From Pseudomonadota bacterium (GTDB lineage Bacteria > Pseudomonadota > Gammaproteobacteria > SZUA-229), in contig JADFWE010000115.1 of NCBI GenBank assembly GCA_015222915.1, forward strand, positions 1 to 9,234: a DNA stretch of 9,234 bases, given 5' to 3'. The notes under the pieces were generated by a model that was not told where the DNA came from, did no database searches, and worked only from the letters and a program-made list of their open reading frames with translations. The first letter of the stretch is position 1, and each line of letters begins with the position of its first letter. Position numbers and translations under genes: made by a program. Positions 1,952 to 9,234 of this stretch are shown here, in pieces.

Positions 1952-3160
1952 ATGCCTGATTATAAATTCAAAACTATCGACTCGGCAGGAAAGATCCGCA
2001 GCGACACCATGGTCGCCAGTAACCCGATGGAGCTGGAAAAACGTCTGAGCAATATGGGTTTTGACCTGTTGAGCTTTAAAGAGCAGACGAGGGCGGTAAA
2101 GAGTGCGTTCCATCGAAAAAAGATCAGCCGCCGTGAACTGATCAACTTTACCTTCCATATCGAACAGCTGATCAAGTCAGGTGTGCCGCTGATCGATAGT
2201 CTGAAAGATATACGTGACAGCATCGAATACAGTTCCTTCACCGATGTGCTGCAGACCATCATCGAGGATATCGAAGGCGGTAAGACATTGTCGCTGGCTC
2301 TGGCTGAGCACCCGATTATCTTCGATAAAGTTTATGTGACGCTGGTGCGAGTCGGTGAAGAGACCGGGCAGCTGGCAGAGGTATTAAAAGATCTGGCAGA
2401 GACCATTCGCTGGCAGGATGAGCTGGTCTCGCAGACCAAGAAGATCATGATCTATCCGATGATAGTAACAGTGATCGTTTTGATGGTCGTCGCCTTCCTG
2501 ATGATATACCTGATGCCGCAGCTGCTGCCGTTCATCAAGAACATCGGCGGCGAGATCCCGTTACATACGAGGATACTGATGGATGTCTCCGACGTTTTCG
2601 TAAATTACTGGTACCTCATCTTCAGCGCACCATTCATTATTTATTTCACCATAAGAACAGTCGCTAAAAACAATATCGGTTTCAGATATTTTCTCGATGA
2701 TCTCAAGCTGAAGGTATGGCTGTTCGGGCCGCTGGTGACGAAGATAAAGCTGGCGAGGTTCGCCAACTATTTTGCCATGATGTACGCATCAGGAATCACC
2801 GTACTCGATGCCTTGCAGATATCAGAGGACATGGTGGATAACCTGGTCCTGGAGGAGTCGATAAATCAGGCGCGCCAGAGGATCTCTGATGGTGTGATAA
2901 TCAGTAAGAGTTTTGAAGCGGTCGGCGTGTTCCCTTCGATGATCGTGCGCATGCTAAAGGTCGGTGAAGATACCGGTGCCATGGATGACGCCCTGCTGAA
3001 TGTGAGTTATTTCTATAACCGCGAAGTAAAAGAATCGATCGAGAAGATTGAACCGGCTATCTTACCGGTGCTGACTGTGGTGCTAGGTGCCATCATGATG
3101 TGGATCATGATGGCCGTGCTAGGCCCTGTCTATGATGCGGTAGCAGGAGTGAAGCTGTAA
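1952..3160 (+). CDS. mshG: Type IV filament inner-membrane platform protein, GspF/PilC/MshG family
   Basis: A 402-residue polytopic inner-membrane protein, the platform on which the assembly ATPase acts and from which pilins enter the filament. It has the two-copy GspF domain. Copy 1 (about residues 66-190) carries SGVPLIDSL (76-84) and VGEETGQLAEVL (134-145). Copy 2 (about 268-390) carries SGITVLDAL (280-288) and VGEDTGAMDDAL (337-348). Membrane segments lie near 168-190, 219-234 and 368-392, the usual three for the family. Length matches PilC/GspF/MshG. ATG 1952 follows the ATPase stop by 15 bases, and the stop TAA overlaps the next start (TAATG at 3158-3162). Membership of the GspF family is secure. 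The MshG label comes from the gene order next to the MshE-like ATPase and is less certain. Confidence 0.93.
   Translation: MPDYKFKTIDSAGKIRSDTMVASNPMELEKRLSNMGFDLLSFKEQTRAVKSAFHRKKISRRELINFTFHIEQLIKSGVPLIDSLKDIRDSIEYSSFTDVLQTIIEDIEGGKTLSLALAEHPIIFDKVYVTLVRVGEETGQLAEVLKDLAETIRWQDELVSQTKKIMIYPMIVTVIVLMVVAFLMIYLMPQLLPFIKNIGGEIPLHTRILMDVSDVFVNYWYLIFSAPFIIYFTIRTVAKNNIGFRYFLDDLKLKVWLFGPLVTKIKLARFANYFAMMYASGITVLDALQISEDMVDNLVLEESINQARQRISDGVIISKSFEAVGVFPSMIVRMLKVGEDTGAMDDALLNVSYFYNREVKESIEKIEPAILPVLTVVLGAIMMWIMMAVLGPVYDAVAGVKL
3145..3149 (+). promoter_or_regulatory. Ribosome binding site supporting the ATG at 3160
   Basis: AGGAG lies inside the last codons of the platform gene, 10 bases before ATG 3160. 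The start overlaps the upstream TAA by one base (TAATG), so reinitiation and a standalone Shine-Dalgarno site both support this start. Confidence 0.6.
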
Positions 3161-4734
3161 TGATAAAACGACTGTTTTATTTTACCGGTTACCGTCTAAG
3201 CGTTATGCACTTCAATGGTAAGGAGCTCGTCGGTACGAGTTCTTTTGAGCCGACAGATGCCGGCCTGGAAAAGTTCAGGGCCTACCTGGAACAGACGCCG
3301 AACATCACCGGTAAATTTCTTGTCGATGTGATCGAAGAGGACTTCCGGAAAGAAAAAATTCCACATGTAGGCAGCAAGGACAGAAAAGCCGTTATCAGCC
3401 GTCTGATCGATCGTTACTATCGGGCGAGCCAGAACTATTGTCATAGCGAGGTCATCGGTAGAGAGAAGAGCGGCCGGAAAGATGACCTGGTGCTGATAGG
3501 CGCGATGACTAATCCACAGTTGATACAGCCGTGGATCTCGATAATCGATGAATGCAAGGTACCATTGTCAGGCATATGGACATTGCCCCTGGTCAGTAAG
3601 GCTGTTCTGAAAACCATAAAAGCCGATTCCGGCGTGGTATTGCTGGTAAGCCAGCAGGTTAACAGCAACGTGAGACAGACCCTGTTCAGAGATGGAAAAT
3701 TGATATCCAGCAGGCAGTCGATAATCAATCAGGATATGGACGATATCACGTCCATCGGTGATCATGCTGCACCCGAGGTTAAGCGGACCATCGACTTCTT
3801 GCGAGGGCAGGGGCTGGTGGCAGGTAATGAGGTTATAAGTATCCATATTCTGGGCGGCGATGAACAGCTGCTGTCGCTGAAGAATTCGTTCATCCCCGGA
3901 GAGAGGCAGACGGTCACCATACATCGCATAACGGAGATCAACGAAAAACTGGGGCTGAAAAGCGTAGGCGAAAAATTCTCTGACGGAATTTTTGCATGGT
4001 TATGCATAAGTCAGAATTTTACCGCCGGCCATTATGGCGAAAAGAAGCTGTTTTCCCGTTATCATAATAAACTGGCTGCCAACGCGATGTACGCGTCGAG
4101 TTTGCTGGTGCTGATAATTGCCGCCCTGATAACTGAAGGTAATATTACAAAAGTTCTGGAAAACGAAAGATCGACGGCTTTGCTGAAACAGGAGGAGATA
4201 CACTATAAAGACCTGTATTCACGGAAGTTTAAAGACTTTGAAGAAGTATTTGAAAATGCTGGCCTGATGAACTCGGCGGTCGATCTGGCGAACCAGATAA
4301 AACTGAATGCTGCGACCTCACCACTGGATTTCATGATCACCCTGAGTAATATATTGAGTGATGATAGCGTTGCCGGGTTGAATATCGACAAGGTCGAATG
4401 GGACGCGATCAATATAGAGAAAAAAACGAACAGGGTAATGAAGGCAAACTTCACCGCAGATCAGCCGGCTAAACATCATGCTGTGGTAACCGGTCGCATC
4501 GACGAGTCAGAATATAATTACCGGGCATCGGTGGCGCAGATACAGGCCATCATTCATCTGCTCAAAGAAAGTCCGCGTGTCGAAACGGTCGAAGTATTAA
4601 AGATGCCGGTCGATCTGCGGTCGGAGAGCAAATTTTCCACCGAGTCAGGCGTCGAGGTAAAACAGCAGGGCGAGAGACGATCGACCGGTGTTTTCTCACT
4701 GGAGATAGTAATGAAGGAGCCGGATCGTGTCTGA
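3160..4734 (+). CDS. GspL-like (PilM-PilN-like fused) pilus alignment protein
   Basis: A 524-residue protein with one central transmembrane helix (about 306-326). Residues 1-300 are cytoplasmic, with alternating strand/helix segments suggesting an actin-like PilM/GspL fold; distinctive stretches are VIEEDFRKEKIPHV (57-70) and GREKSGRKDDLVL (100-112). After the helix comes a charged coiled-coil-like stretch (330-365), then a periplasmic domain (about 387-520), probably ferredoxin-like as in PilN/GspL. This layout equals GspL, or PilM fused to PilN, and is inferred from topology and position rather than strong motif identity. I recognise the N-terminal pattern from uncharacterised pilus-locus proteins of proteobacteria. 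No clear actin-type phosphate loop is visible at the N terminus (YFTGYRLS replaces the usual Asp-x-Gly-Ser/Thr), so ATP binding is doubtful. It probably contacts the ATPase and pairs with the next gene product. The end overlaps that gene by 8 bases. Confidence 0.8.
   Translation: MIKRLFYFTGYRLSVMHFNGKELVGTSSFEPTDAGLEKFRAYLEQTPNITGKFLVDVIEEDFRKEKIPHVGSKDRKAVISRLIDRYYRASQNYCHSEVIGREKSGRKDDLVLIGAMTNPQLIQPWISIIDECKVPLSGIWTLPLVSKAVLKTIKADSGVVLLVSQQVNSNVRQTLFRDGKLISSRQSIINQDMDDITSIGDHAAPEVKRTIDFLRGQGLVAGNEVISIHILGGDEQLLSLKNSFIPGERQTVTIHRITEINEKLGLKSVGEKFSDGIFAWLCISQNFTAGHYGEKKLFSRYHNKLAANAMYASSLLVLIIAALITEGNITKVLENERSTALLKQEEIHYKDLYSRKFKDFEEVFENAGLMNSAVDLANQIKLNAATSPLDFMITLSNILSDDSVAGLNIDKVEWDAINIEKKTNRVMKANFTADQPAKHHAVVTGRIDESEYNYRASVAQIQAIIHLLKESPRVETVEVLKMPVDLRSESKFSTESGVEVKQQGERRSTGVFSLEIVMKEPDRV
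4714..4719 (+). promoter_or_regulatory. Strong ribosome binding site deciding the GTG start at 4727
   Basis: AAGGAG lies 7 bases before GTG 4727, inside the 3' end of the preceding gene. It is the best Shine-Dalgarno match in the gene run and justifies the non-ATG start of the PilO-like gene. Confidence 0.75.
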
Positions 4735-5356
4735 TAAATTTATCCTGCCAGATTTTACCCCGGCGATGATCCGTTCTGCCATCGCCCTGAGTCTCATGCT
4801 GGTGGTGAGTGCCATCGTCGTGGGCGTATCTTATGTCTACCTGGATGATGTCTATCAGCAGCGTCAGGCGGCCACACGAGCTATGCAGAAGTGGAAGATA
4901 AAGATAAACAGTTCGGTACAGAACAACCAGATCATCGAAGAGTTTGAAAGCAACTTCCTCACCCTGGTCAATCAGGGGGTGGTCGGTGCTGAAGACCGTC
5001 TTAGCTGGTTTGAGACCATACAGAATACCGCGAAACGAAGAGGCATGCCCTCGGTTAAATACAGCATATCCTCGCAGAAAAAACTTGATACAAAAAACCT
5101 GAAAGCAAAATATCGTGGCATAGATGTCTTCAAAAGCGTGATGACACTCGATATAACGATGGCGCACGAGGGTGATCTGTTCGCCTTGTTAAATGACCTG
5201 AGAAAGGCCGATGGCCTGTATGCCGTCGATCACTGTGATATACAGAAGACGGGTAATACTGTTGGCCTGAACAATAATATGACAGCATTTTGCGAACTCG
5301 GCTGGTACACCTTCAAGCGGCAAGTGAGCAATAAACGCAGCAAGAGATCAGGTTAA
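4727..5356 (+). CDS. PilO/GspM-like inner-membrane alignment subunit
   Basis: A 209-residue bitopic protein: a short cytoplasmic N terminus, a transmembrane helix (about 14-37), a helical/coiled-coil stretch (38-80) and a periplasmic region. The stretch GVVGAEDRLSWFETI (84-98) and the segment SVMTLDITMAHEGDLFALL (137-155) fit a PilO/GspM-type ferredoxin-like domain. In those proteins the domain pairs with PilN or GspL, here presumably the preceding gene product. Two periplasmic cysteines, C170 (DHCDIQK) and C189 (TAFCELGW), could form a disulfide. The GTG start has a strong AAGGAG 7 bases upstream and overlaps the previous gene by 8 bases, so translation is probably coupled. The call rests on topology, gene position and recall of this sequence pattern; MshJ would be the functional counterpart in the MSHA system. 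Confidence 0.78.
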   Translation: MSDKFILPDFTPAMIRSAIALSLMLVVSAIVVGVSYVYLDDVYQQRQAATRAMQKWKIKINSSVQNNQIIEEFESNFLTLVNQGVVGAEDRLSWFETIQNTAKRRGMPSVKYSISSQKKLDTKNLKAKYRGIDVFKSVMTLDITMAHEGDLFALLNDLRKADGLYAVDHCDIQKTGNTVGLNNNMTAFCELGWYTFKRQVSNKRSKRSG

Positions 5357-5360
5357 GGTA

Positions 5361-5771
5361 ATGATTATCAGGATAATTAGATCGATGATGGTTCTATCCG
5401 TATTCGGTGTCAGTACTGGATATGCGGCAGGTGCGGATTATGATGCCGGAAGTCTGGAGCGATTGTTTACAGATAGAGGGCAGCGTGCACAGATCGATGC
5501 CGCCCGTTCCGGAGGTGTATCTGGCACAGGCACGAAAAAGATCAGTAAGGTTAAAGTCAATGGTTATGTGACCCGCAGTGATGGTAAAAGCGTGGTCTGG
5601 GTGAACGGCAAGAGCACCCTGGATAAAACGAGGGTTGATGATGTGAGAGTGCATCAGTCGACCATCGGTAAAAATAAAAAAGTTACGATCAGCGCAGATG
5701 GAAAGCATAGACGATTGAAGCCGGGTGAAGTCTGGCATAAAGAGACGGGTAAGGTCGTTGAAGGGTATTAG
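5361..5771 (+). CDS. Small exported PilP/MshK-like protein
   Basis: A 136-residue protein with a Sec-type signal peptide (residues 1-23; cleavage likely after the Ala-Ala at 22-23 or after Ala25). The mature part has three marks: SLERLFTDRGQRAQIDAAR (31-49), a short beta-rich unit VNGYVTRSDGKSVVWVNG (66-83) resembling the PilP/GspC homology region that contacts the secretin, and a basic C-terminal part with LKPGEVW (119-125). It most likely sits in the periplasm and links the inner-membrane alignment proteins to an outer-membrane secretin. Unlike typical PilP it has no lipobox and no cysteine at all, so it should not be lipidated; this is closer to MshK. ATG 5361 lies 4 bases after the previous stop, and the 3' end is overlapped by the next gene. 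The PilP/MshK role is inferred from motif and position. Confidence 0.72.
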   Translation: MIIRIIRSMMVLSVFGVSTGYAAGADYDAGSLERLFTDRGQRAQIDAARSGGVSGTGTKKISKVKVNGYVTRSDGKSVVWVNGKSTLDKTRVDDVRVHQSTIGKNKKVTISADGKHRRLKPGEVWHKETGKVVEGY

Positions 5772-7236
5772 CAGACAATCCGCACATTGGCAACAGAGCG
5801 GGGTCGTGCTGCTTACCCTGGTAATCGTTATTGCATTGACATTGTCGACTTATTATCTGTTATCGATATCACGGGTCGATATCGACGTCGAAAATAAAGT
5901 GAAAACACGTAAGATCCTCACTCGGGCAAAACAGGCGCTGATCGATTACGCTGTGGTCAACTGGACGGATGATATGGAAAACGGGAAGCTGGGAAAACTT
6001 CCCTGTCCGGATGTTAGTACTATTAACCCGGAAGGACAGCAGGATCCAACCTGTGGAAAAGCATATGCAAATGTGACCGGATATTACCCATGGCGGACGC
6101 TGGGCACGGATGTGTTTAAGGATAGTGGTGGCAGTTGTTTATTCTATGCCGTTTCACCAGCATATAAGGTTAGCCCGGTTGCTGCGCTGACCCCTGACAG
6201 CTACGGACAGCTCCAGATCGTGGATCAAGCGGGTGCTGTGATACAGGGTGCGACGCCTGAGAGTCGCCCGGTAGCCATCATTATCGCCGCCGGGCACTCG
6301 CTCGGATCACAGGCCAGAAATCATGATGCGACTACCCTGTGTGGTGCTGATTACGGAAATCTCATCGCGTATCTCGATGATGATGGTGTTACTGATAATG
6401 CTGCGATAGATCCTGATGCTGAGGATGTAATCGAAAAGTTGGTACAGTCATATGCTGGTTCGGAAGAAGCGGCCAACCCGCTTAATGATATGCTTATCAC
6501 CATCACACATGACGAGATTTGGGCGGCATTAGACAGCACGATAAAAAGTGCCGCTTTCGATAAGCGAATGGAGAAACTGACCGAAGCGATAGCTTTGTGC
6601 TTTGCTGAATACGGCTCTCATAATGGCAGTCATCTACCGATGCCTGCGGCTGTTGATCTTAACGGTGGAGAGTACCGGAAGAGTTCAGATTACACGGATG
6701 GCAGTAGTTTCACTTCTGCATATTCAGGACGGCTGCCCTATATCGTCTCAAATGCAAATGCGAGGCTGGTAAATGGTGATGAAGCTGAGATATTTGATAA
6801 CGATTACTGTGACGATATCGATCTGACGGTGTCTGCTTCAGAGAGCAATATTAATTTCAAGGATGATAGCGGTGATGATAAAGGCGCCTATTTTGATCTA
6901 TGGAGTAACTGGAAAGATCATTTTTTCTATGCGATATCAAAAGCAAATAACCCGGATGTCATCGTTTCATCCTGTTCCGGAAGCTGCATCGACGTTGCCG
7001 GGACAGAATATGCCGGCATTATCTTCTTTTCGGGGTTGAAGCAAGCCGGACAGCTGCGATATGCACCACCGTTCGAAACGGATACCAAATCAGACGTGGC
7101 GAATTATCTTGAGAACGGCAATGCTGGCTTTTTCCCTGATAATACCGGTAGCCAGATATACCAGCCTGTCGGCGGTACAAGTAATGACCATATGTTCTGT
7201 ATTAAATCTGACATGAGCGGGGTAGTCAGATGCTAG
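5725..7236 (+). CDS. Large PilX/GspK-like prepilin with duplicated C-terminal domain
   Basis: A 503-residue protein with a basic leader and Gln-Gln-Ser-Gly (23-26) before the hydrophobic helix VVLLTLVIVIALTLSTYYLL (27-46). This fits a class III-like prepilin peptidase site cut after G26. Position +5 is Thr31, not Glu, as in GspK-type pseudopilins. The exported part holds two related domains. Copy 1 (about 92-269) has LPCPD, C110, GYYPWRTLG, GGSCLFYAVSP, PVAIIIAAGHSLGSQAR and NDMLITIT. Copy 2 (about 286-494) has LPMPA, GRLPY, LWSNWKDHFFYAIS, YAGIIFFSGLKQAGQLR and NDHMFCI. Ten cysteines, including the last residue C503, suggest disulfide stabilisation. An Asp-rich stretch occurs at 218-233. GTG 5725 overlaps the previous gene by 47 bases with a weak ribosome site; TTG 5758 (14-base overlap) is an alternative. 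It is probably a minor, tip-located subunit. I recognise the pattern but know of no tested function. Confidence 0.8.
   Translation: MKSGIKRRVRSLKGISRQSAHWQQSGVVLLTLVIVIALTLSTYYLLSISRVDIDVENKVKTRKILTRAKQALIDYAVVNWTDDMENGKLGKLPCPDVSTINPEGQQDPTCGKAYANVTGYYPWRTLGTDVFKDSGGSCLFYAVSPAYKVSPVAALTPDSYGQLQIVDQAGAVIQGATPESRPVAIIIAAGHSLGSQARNHDATTLCGADYGNLIAYLDDDGVTDNAAIDPDAEDVIEKLVQSYAGSEEAANPLNDMLITITHDEIWAALDSTIKSAAFDKRMEKLTEAIALCFAEYGSHNGSHLPMPAAVDLNGGEYRKSSDYTDGSSFTSAYSGRLPYIVSNANARLVNGDEAEIFDNDYCDDIDLTVSASESNINFKDDSGDDKGAYFDLWSNWKDHFFYAISKANNPDVIVSSCSGSCIDVAGTEYAGIIFFSGLKQAGQLRYAPPFETDTKSDVANYLENGNAGFFPDNTGSQIYQPVGGTSNDHMFCIKSDMSGVVRC
7215..7222 (+). promoter_or_regulatory. Purine-rich ribosome binding site for the ATG at 7230
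   Basis: GAGCGGGG ends 7 bases before ATG 7230, within the 3' end of the preceding gene. The match is moderate. It favours ATG 7230 over the in-frame GTG at 7242, which has no comparable upstream tract. Confidence 0.45.
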
Positions 7237-7958
7237 TTCGCGTGGCGAGAAGAGAAGCGGGTTTTACACTGATCGAGATCGCGGTGGTACTGGTTATTAT
7301 CGGCTTGCTGCTGGGTAGTTTCATCAATACCTTTGCGCAAAGAATCGACACGACGAGAAGAGATAATACAAAAAAGGAGCTGGAGGAGATCAAGAGCGTT
7401 ATCATGGCGTACGCGTACACTAAATCACCGCCCTATATTCCCTGTCCGGATACAGATTCACCTTTAGATGGAATCGAGAATCGCAGTGGCGCTTCATGTA
7501 CTTCTGCACATGGTTTCGTGCCCTGGGTGACGCTCGGCGTTGGTTATTCAGATGCCTGGGGTAACCGTTATCGTTACTGGGTGAGACCCGATTATTCGGG
7601 CAGCTCAGGGTTTTCATTAACGACCGCAGATGATTCGGCGAAGGACGCAAGAGTGTTCACGAGGGTGCAACATACGGTGCAAGATCTCACCGATAATGCA
7701 GTGGTCGTGATCTTCTCACAGGGTAAGAATGGCTTAGGTGCGCGTAGCTTCGAAGGTACGGACCGGGCGCCGGTACCGGCGGTGGGTGGCGGACATGATG
7801 ATGAACGTGAAAATCTCGATCTCGACATCGCATTCGTATCTCGTGATCTAAGGGTAGAAGGTGCGACGACAGTAAATGGCGGCATCTTTGACGATATCGT
7901 TATCTGGATAGGCGCCCTGGAACTCAAAGCTAAAATGGTCGAAGCGGGCGTTTTGTAG
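7230..7958 (+). CDS. Type IV prepilin / pseudopilin with CPD-type C-terminal domain
   Basis: A 242-residue prepilin. The leader (MLVRVARREAG) is followed by FTLIEIAVVLVIIGLLLGSF, giving a textbook prepilin peptidase site after G11 with Phe at +1 and Glu16 at +5. The helix serves as membrane anchor and then filament core. The exported domain has IPCPD (70-74), C90, GFVPWVTLG (95-103), DAWGNRYRYWV (108-118), NAVVVIFSQGKNGLGA (156-171) and FDDIVIWIG (220-228). C72 and C90 are the only cysteines and probably form a disulfide. The same ordered motifs occur in the preceding 503-residue protein, so the two are related. It overlaps that gene by 7 bases and is the last gene of the run. It is larger than a typical major pilin, so a minor pilin or pseudopilin is likelier; whether it is the main filament subunit cannot be told from this window. 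Confidence 0.88.
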   Translation: MLVRVARREAGFTLIEIAVVLVIIGLLLGSFINTFAQRIDTTRRDNTKKELEEIKSVIMAYAYTKSPPYIPCPDTDSPLDGIENRSGASCTSAHGFVPWVTLGVGYSDAWGNRYRYWVRPDYSGSSGFSLTTADDSAKDARVFTRVQHTVQDLTDNAVVVIFSQGKNGLGARSFEGTDRAPVPAVGGGHDDERENLDLDIAFVSRDLRVEGATTVNGGIFDDIVIWIGALELKAKMVEAGVL

Positions 7959-7990: not shown

Positions 7991-9234
7991 TTAATGGTCG
8001 TTCTTGAGCGTGTTCTGTAGAGAGAAGCAAACCTTACCTTCTGTATTATCACTCACCGTCAATTCATAACCGTGATTGATCGCCAGTTCACGTGACTGGA
8101 ACAAGCCTATACCGAATCCGTCGTTAGAAGATACGATCTCTTTGAGCAGGTGAGGAAAAATTTCCGCAGAAATGGCGCTGCCGGTATCGGTAACGGTTAG
8201 CCGGAGAGCCTCCTTGTTTTTTTCCAGGGTTATAAAAATCTCAAGCTGTGATTCACGTATTCGTTTGCTCCTCGCGTTATCCAGGAGATTTTCGACGACG
8301 GTGGTAAAAGCATCTATCGGGATATCGGTGTCCTGATCGATTTCAGCTGAAAAATCGATGTGTCTGTCAGCGTAGCGCATCTGCAGCTGGTCCCACCAGT
8401 GCAACATGGAACCGGTCGCAATTTTTTCGTCATCTTTATTCTTTGCCGGTGCGCGAAGTTTTTCCAAGGTGGTGTTGAGGCGCTGGGTTAACAGGGGCAT
8501 CTGTTTTTTTAATACGTCGATGATCTCCTGTATCTGCGCATCATTATCATTCAGTATCTGGGTCATGGTCTGTGTCGATTGTAGAATGTTTTTTACATCA
8601 TGAGTCAACTTTGACCCGGTTTCATAGATAGCTTTCAGGTGCGCCTGTTTGATGAGCTGCTGCTCCTGCAGCTTGGCGAGATAGTAAAACACCTGCACAT
8701 TGAGCAATAGCTTTGCATGTAGAGATAATGACGGCCCAACCGGGGTAAAAGTATATAGCCGTAGTTTTATCTTCTTATCTTCGACCTCGATAACATAAGG
8801 TGATCTCTCGCCTTCGAGCTTGCTGTCCGCCTCTGTCTCCCAGTAAACGCCGCATACCCAGTGCTGCTGTAGAAGATATGTTGATGTGGCGGACAGAAAG
8901 GTAGAAGGCCTGAGTGATGCGTTAGCTTCCAGTGTCGACACATGGGTAAACCATTGCTCGAAAGGGCCGCCTATATTAAGGATGTATTTCTCAAGGAGCT
9001 GCGAGAGACCTTTAAATCCGGCGCGCGGCGTCCACAAAAAAGCCATGGTGAATAGAAACAGGCTGAGGATGAATACGCTGATCGCCAGCGACTCGATGTA
9101 TGGCTGCTGTGTGGCCAGTGTGATCAGTGCGCTGCTCATGCATAAGAAGGTGATCAGTAATACGATCAGAAAACCGCGGATAAAATCGACCTGTTTGGAA
9201 GATGTGTCGTTTACCGGAACGAATAGCAGTACCA
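7991..9234 (-). CDS. Membrane sensor histidine kinase, partial (5' end beyond window)
   Basis: Minus-strand frame with stop (TTA on the plus strand) at 7991-7993. The first in-window ATG complement is at 9137-9139, but the frame stays open to the right edge. The extra 31 codons are strongly hydrophobic and complete a membrane helix spanning that Met, so the true start lies outside. Counting from that Met: a second membrane helix about 16-36; a GAF-like region about 57-140; a helical linker; an H-box with H180 (KLTHDVKN, 177-184); an N-box VVENLLDNAR (281-290); G1 DTG (318-320); and G2 GFGIG (341-345). All core catalytic parts needed for autophosphorylation are present. No receiver domain follows the C terminus (ends LKNDH). 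The layout resembles PrsK-type kinases of XrtA/PEP-CTERM systems, but that label is tentative. The gene is convergent to the pilus run, and its partner regulator is not in the window. Confidence 0.85.
   Translation of the reverse strand, partial: VLLFVPVNDTSSKQVDFIRGFLIVLLITFLCMSSALITLATQQPYIESLAISVFILSLFLFTMAFLWTPRAGFKGLSQLLEKYILNIGGPFEQWFTHVSTLEANASLRPSTFLSATSTYLLQQHWVCGVYWETEADSKLEGERSPYVIEVEDKKIKLRLYTFTPVGPSLSLHAKLLLNVQVFYYLAKLQEQQLIKQAHLKAIYETGSKLTHDVKNILQSTQTMTQILNDNDAQIQEIIDVLKKQMPLLTQRLNTTLEKLRAPAKNKDDEKIATGSMLHWWDQLQMRYADRHIDFSAEIDQDTDIPIDAFTTVVENLLDNARSKRIRESQLEIFITLEKNKEALRLTVTDTGSAISAEIFPHLLKEIVSSNDGFGIGLFQSRELAINHGYELTVSDNTEGKVCFSLQNTLKNDH

Follow-up and report, generated by a model that had tools for sequence, protein, structure and literature searches.

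The DNA analyzed here, referred to as “the window”, comprises 9,234 nucleotides and is one entire contig (JADFWE010000115.1) of a gammaproteobacterial genome assembly (GCA_015222915.1; 2.1 Mb, 84% complete). Two overlapping genes in it encode a large pilin-like protein of 503 amino acids, designated “BIG”, and a small prepilin of 242 amino acids, designated “SMALL”. On balance, their sequences favor the reading that BIG, with two related heads, and SMALL, with one, are likely the two subunits that make up the tip of a type IV pilus of MSHA-like kind. Profile comparisons support two homologous pilin heads in the single BIG chain, the evidence coming from their C-terminal halves and being marginal for their N-terminal halves. 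The features concerned are:

5725 to 7236, + strand: BIG, 503 amino acids, GTG start (alternative start TTG at 5758); translation and AlphaFold model
5800 to 5901, + strand: N-terminal part of the BIG alpha-1 helix, following the cleavage predicted at Gly26; mature position 5 is not Glu
5902 to 6546, + strand: BIG head copy 1, residues 60-274; BLASTP and profile matches
6004 to 6054, + strand: BIG Cys94 to Cys110, both present in 107 of 112 alignment rows
6547 to 7233, + strand: BIG head copy 2, residues 275-503, beginning with a short helix (276-299)
6922 to 7215, + strand: C-terminal half of copy 2 (FYAIS, IIFFSG, GQLR, NYLE, ND..FCI), significantly similar to copy 1; limits approximate
7230 to 7958, + strand: SMALL, 242 amino acids, GFTLIE signal, Glu5 present; N_methyl (PF07963) 26.7 bits against a cut-off of 21.2
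7359 to 7955, + strand: single head of SMALL, residues 44-242, GspG-like

BIG overlaps the gene upstream by 47 nucleotides, and SMALL overlaps BIG by 7 nucleotides.

The original prediction had read the same ordered motifs three times, in copy 1, copy 2 and SMALL, and the motifs that it quoted were all seen in the translations of 5725-7236 (+) and 7230-7958 (+). Copy 1 and the SMALL head are clear homologues by sequence comparison. They were aligned by BLASTP (E = 7e-8 over 114 columns, equaled in 0 of 1000 shuffles) and by hhalign, which gave 99.1% (E = 2e-18) for the heads alone and 99.4% (E = 1.7e-21) when the N-terminal helix was included. Copy 2 went undetected by BLASTP with either of them (best E values of 0.30 and 1.7, a match in a 15-residue segment overlap being set aside, as was the copy 1-copy 2 shuffle result, which that overlap makes an artifact).

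Profiles of copy 1 and copy 2 were therefore compared using alignments of several depths. BIG homologues numbered 137 at E ≤ 0.001; the 112-row alignment contains the query and 111 of the best 120 of these, those longer than 440 amino acids. Note that the window's protein is in this alignment twice. The 26-row alignments (A3 and A4) contain the window and 25 of the 33 loci fetched, all titled as Gammaproteobacteria, with eight omitted as cut, redundant or length-filtered. Between copy 1 and copy 2, hhalign gave 86.1% using 112 rows each, 87.6% using 150 rows each, 93.3% (E = 2.6e-7) using 26 diverse rows each, and 90.8% after the same 26 rows were trimmed. The trimmed score was 49.3, versus a maximum of 25.8 in 300 column-permuted controls and 13.6 for a reversed profile. 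Thus, in the profile-profile comparison proposed by the original prediction as a check, the two copies are significantly similar. For the C-terminal halves alone the score was 45.4 (control maximum 21.8; 0 of 300 controls equal). Copy 2 gave only 1.6% with SMALL, which is not significant, and so appears closer to copy 1; derivation of copy 2 from SMALL was rejected on the same result. Of the threefold repeat, then, the part that stands is copy 1 with SMALL and the C-terminal half of copy 1 with that of copy 2. AlphaFold models of SMALL and BIG are confident (predicted local distance difference test scores of 92 and 94), and the predicted structures, judged by reading, appear to share the same order of elements.

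The two proteins differ at mature position 5. Glu is found there in 0 of the 109 filled rows of the 112-row BIG alignment and in 121 of 121 rows for SMALL, the window's proteins included. SMALL has a class III signal, also recognized by TIGR02532 (22.5 bits against a cut-off of 16.3). The N-terminus of BIG consists of Q.G and a hydrophobic helix lacking Glu5. By a published rule, pilus assembly starts at the tip, from a complex of minor pilins whose cap subunit lacks Glu5; the Glu5 of each subunit below is paired with the N-terminus of its upper neighbor (PMC10191384). GspK-type caps, at the tips of type II secretion systems (T2SS) and type IVa pili (T4aP), resemble BIG in lacking Glu5 and in capping a minor-pilin complex (PMC10191384); GspK has an inserted alpha domain (PMC8179133), whereas BIG has no Pfam or NCBIfam family over its cut-off, and databases therefore mostly name it “hypothetical protein”. 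The specialized tip role suggested by the original prediction gains support from the missing Glu5. The ten cysteines of BIG are also well conserved, none being present in fewer than 107 of 112 rows. Cys94 and Cys110 are absent jointly, from the same 5 rows, as expected of a disulfide. Cys72 and Cys90 of SMALL are kept in 121 of 121 rows.

We infer a tip location, a pairing of BIG with SMALL and a ligand as follows. Since BIG lacks Glu5, it would cap the filament and prime its assembly, with no pilin above it. SMALL, having Glu5, would lie directly beneath and pair with the N-terminus of BIG, and the major pilin would follow below SMALL. Like other pilin heads, copy 1 would be packed within the filament. 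Head copy 2, which starts with only a short helix that by eye does not look like a membrane anchor, would project from the tip as a contact (adhesion) module. Contact with a surface or ligand is suggested by the variability of the second head and by a lectin in its place in two relatives, by comparison with modular pilins and PilJ.

The second head is the variable part of BIG: it may be absent, intact, enlarged, or, in two relatives, swapped for a legume lectin. Of 87 distinct BIG frames, a copy 2 is detectable in 47 (a proportion biased toward copy 2, since some of the loci were retrieved using the window's own two-headed protein), five complete ones stop after head 1, and tails run up to 887 residues. 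These frames exclude GFTLIE-like motifs by design, and their lack of Glu5 is no evidence. The legume lectin domain lies behind head 1 in loci L053 (6.7e-8) and L054 (6.4e-11), over the Pfam cut-off in both, and no copy-2 match was reported behind head 1 in either. When the copy-1 profile was run on the 80 tails behind head 1, matches were found in 46 of the 47 copy-2 tails; most were weak, 40 lay in the C-half of the profile, and nine reached 5 bits, although the one in L064 is merely head 1 itself at its trailing end. Reversed tails gave 12 matches, 11 of them in the C-half and none at 5 bits. The 33 tails without a clear copy 2 have a weak C-half match that ends within 60 residues of the C-terminus in 16 cases using the copy-1 profile and 18 using the copy-2 profile, versus 1 and 0, respectively, when reversed. 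This difference suggests that many of the long tails carry a worn second head at their end.

Matches to the copy-1 profile, SMALL-type genes among them, were found in 64 of 274 genomes when the class was searched and in 42 of 299 when the phylum was; the copy-2 profile matched in 19 of the 274 genomes of the class, the match in one (G091) falling on head 1. In another class of the phylum, 15 of 17 loci are single-headed without Glu5, and at least 12 also hold a SMALL-type gene in the same locus; note that L138, labeled as other-class in these single-head counts and in the tree, actually belongs to the same class as the window. The copy-2 profile matches the single head in 6 of these 15 loci (at most 19 bits, in L141). 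A tree groups the other-class single-headed forms and places them inside the two-headed ones; its deep branches are weak, and it requires four changes or more. The duplication put forward by the original prediction is thus borne out by profiles, and the tree settles neither its ancestral single-domain pseudopilin nor the direction of change; living single-headed forms were not adopted as the ancestor. A stand-alone copy-2 pilin was rejected. Among the best 120 of 199 matches, the 14 proteins shorter than 420 amino acids all start inside head 1 or copy 2, have by eye no pilin signal, and look like fragments of BIG.

Two side observations concern these genes. SMALL-type frames in the other-class loci L139, L140, L142, L143, L144 and L146 continue for at least 270 residues beyond the match to copy 1, all of them being cut by the locus end; the corresponding stretch in the window's SMALL is 64 residues. 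BIG is single-headed in those loci, and the extra module may thus move between the two partners. At L075:5186-6440, head 1 and part of head 2 are in different reading frames near a contig end, reflecting either a sequencing error or a broken gene.

The BIG-SMALL pair sits at the end of what its sequences mark as an MSHA-like pilus operon. The remaining genes of the window are:

209 to 1936, + strand: MshE-like extension ATPase with cyclic di-GMP-binding N-domain; T2SSE and MshEN over cut-off, NF053729 58.5 bits against a cut-off of 38
1952 to 3160, + strand: MshG/GspF-like platform protein; T2SSF over cut-off
3160 to 4734, + strand: 524-amino-acid protein in the place of MshI/PilMN; role from position alone, no family over cut-off
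4727 to 5356, + strand: 209-amino-acid protein in the place of MshJ/PilO; role from position alone, no family hit
5361 to 5771, + strand: 136-amino-acid protein in the place of MshK/PilP; role from position alone, no family over cut-off
7991 to 9139, - strand: histidine kinase

SMALL follows BIG in 30 of the 33 loci, the other three being cut within BIG, and the machine genes upstream of BIG keep the same order where the locus extends that far. The mandatory genes of the MSH system include mshE, mshG, mshL, mshM and the major-pilin gene mshA (PMC6668835), and the window has an ATPase with the cyclic di-GMP domain of MshE as well as a platform protein. Although T2SSE, MshEN, T2SSF and the MshE-related cyclic di-GMP domain were over their cut-offs, the models scored are not MSH-specific; the window's ATPase and platform proteins missed the GspE, PilB and GspF equivalog cut-offs. 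The syntenic locus L002 starts with an MshM-like ATPase (an AAA_22 match), a secretin that exceeds the MshL cut-off (252.6 versus 250.2) and, at the position of MshN, a TPR protein. Unlike in MSHA, only two pilin-like genes follow the machine genes in the window. Downstream of SMALL, 22 of the 26 loci inspected carry a third prepilin, of the VLKGQELI/VLKGREMI type, and the four loci without it end within 2.3 kb of SMALL. This gene is a candidate for the major pilin. The genome also encodes three PilT/PilU-family ATPases over cut-off, so that a retraction motor exists, and one short PilA-like pilin.

Further observations were made on these neighbors. The three genes at 3160-5771 are syntenic across many loci, yet none is over a Pfam or NCBIfam cut-off. 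The third prepilin stands directly behind SMALL in several Woeseiaceae, and its copy at L002:15908-16636 has FPGDY. At L002:14243-17437, downstream of the kinase, the third prepilin is grouped with an ABC-2-like permease (just below cut-off), an unknown protein and an ABC ATPase. The best NCBIfam match of the window's kinase (7991-9139, -) is the XrtA/PEP-CTERM protein PrsK, and that of the MshM-like ATPase (L002:75-1436) is an XrtA/PEP-CTERM protein (PEP-CTERM ATPase), both below cut-off.

Several results weigh against the proposed two-headed tip. For the N-terminal halves of copies 1 and 2 the score was marginal (16.9, equaled in 3 of 300 controls), their best alignment places GYYPW opposite LPMPA, outside the expected register, and a forced global alignment of the copies drops to 62.6%. 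Given the scores of the two halves, the C-half pairs FYAVS/FFYAIS, VAIIIAAGHSLGSQAR/AGIIFFSGLKQAGQLR, AYLDDDG/NYLENGN and NDMLITIT/NDHMFCI are good evidence of a repeat, and the pairs LPCPD/LPMPA and GYYPW/GRLPY are suggestive only. Foldseek searches with both models found no solved structure in the PDB at E ≤ 0.001, and a further look gave middling scores only. BIG has no match to N_methyl (PF07963) at E ≤ 1, for which reason it is termed pilin-like, on the strength of its head; the same model also misses a GspK-like gene on contig C79 of this genome. A Pfam scan of 20 BIG relatives found no domain at E ≤ 0.01 in 18, so the contact role rests on the two lectin cases and on analogy. Finally, since the window is a whole contig of an incomplete assembly, no mshL, mshM or major-pilin gene belonging to this operon itself was seen; two secretins were found in the genome, both below the MshL cut-off.

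A different placement of BIG is suggested by PilJ of Clostridioides difficile, which like BIG has two pilin-like heads per chain, thought to result from duplication or fusion (PMC4471445, PMC9556784). BIG could be an accessory pilin spread along the shaft, as modeled for PilJ, its copy 2 protruding sideways; the C-terminal head of PilJ projects from the fiber (PMC9556784), and copy 2 is also C-terminal. We consider this unlikely, because BIG lacks Glu5 in all filled rows, which marks it as a cap, and as a profile matches no PDB chain at E ≤ 10. PilJ also differs in being of Gram-positive origin and modeled within the fiber, and BIG in having a single-headed partner whose gene is conserved. The original prediction's view that a tandem-head pilin is unusual holds, but the dual pilin fold is already known from PilJ, called the only one in 2014 (PMC4471445).

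Slightly less probable still is a pseudopilin role for BIG and SMALL in a second, type II-like secretion machine, with copy 2 handling a secreted substrate. SMALL shares an N-terminal helix and the D.WGN.Y.Y segment with the major pseudopilin GspG, and 115 of 115 members of its alignment (A2) match the GspG model TIGR01710 at E ≤ 0.001. Against this, SMALL is longer than GspG, has LPCPD...PW.TLG ahead of DAWGN, and scores 37 bits, missing the cut-off of 88.85. A T2SS distinct from this operon is encoded elsewhere in the genome: C79 carries G to N-like genes, recognized by eye, and C392 carries GspE and GspF, both above cut-off. The syntenic secretin is of the MshL type. That copy 2 is an unrelated domain with a few look-alike motifs and no pilin head is very improbable: nothing was found by BLASTP, the N-halves are marginal and, within the window's BIG alone, the resemblance of the C-halves is weak (equaled in 54 of 2000 shuffles), but the profile score of the whole copies lies far beyond all 300 controls, that of the C-halves is equaled in none of 300, and the head profiles cross-recognize each other among relatives.

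For the preferred reading, BIG and SMALL as a tip, modular pilins are a further precedent. Streptococcus sanguinis PilB (vWA) and PilC (lectin), CofB and ComZ have an extra C-terminal module that is likely tip-exposed (PMC8179133). The module of PilB and PilC is foreign to pili, whereas that of BIG is another pilin head, a legume lectin occurring only in the two relatives (L053 and L054); the window's BIG is thus no modular pilin under the strict definition, which calls for a non-pilus extra domain. MshQ is a putative MSHA adhesin (PMC7096442). Searches of the literature found nothing on the BIG family; a search by phrase for tandem or double pilin heads matched no pilus paper and one unrelated paper.

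A broader proposal, which we hold only tentatively and judge somewhat doubtful, is that an unnamed, widespread cap family evolves by duplicating its pilin head, that the first head is built into the filament while the second is a fast-changing contact module, open to loss, to growth by hundreds of residues or to replacement by a lectin, and that the pair is the missing tip adhesin of MSHA-like pili. If the tip assignment is true, it would put a name to the likely tip of MSHA-like pili across a wide range of Gammaproteobacteria, most of them uncultured. The dual pilin fold, already seen in PilJ, may then have had a second origin, and a simple two-protein tip would take the place of the four-protein (HIJK) tip of T4aP and T2SS.
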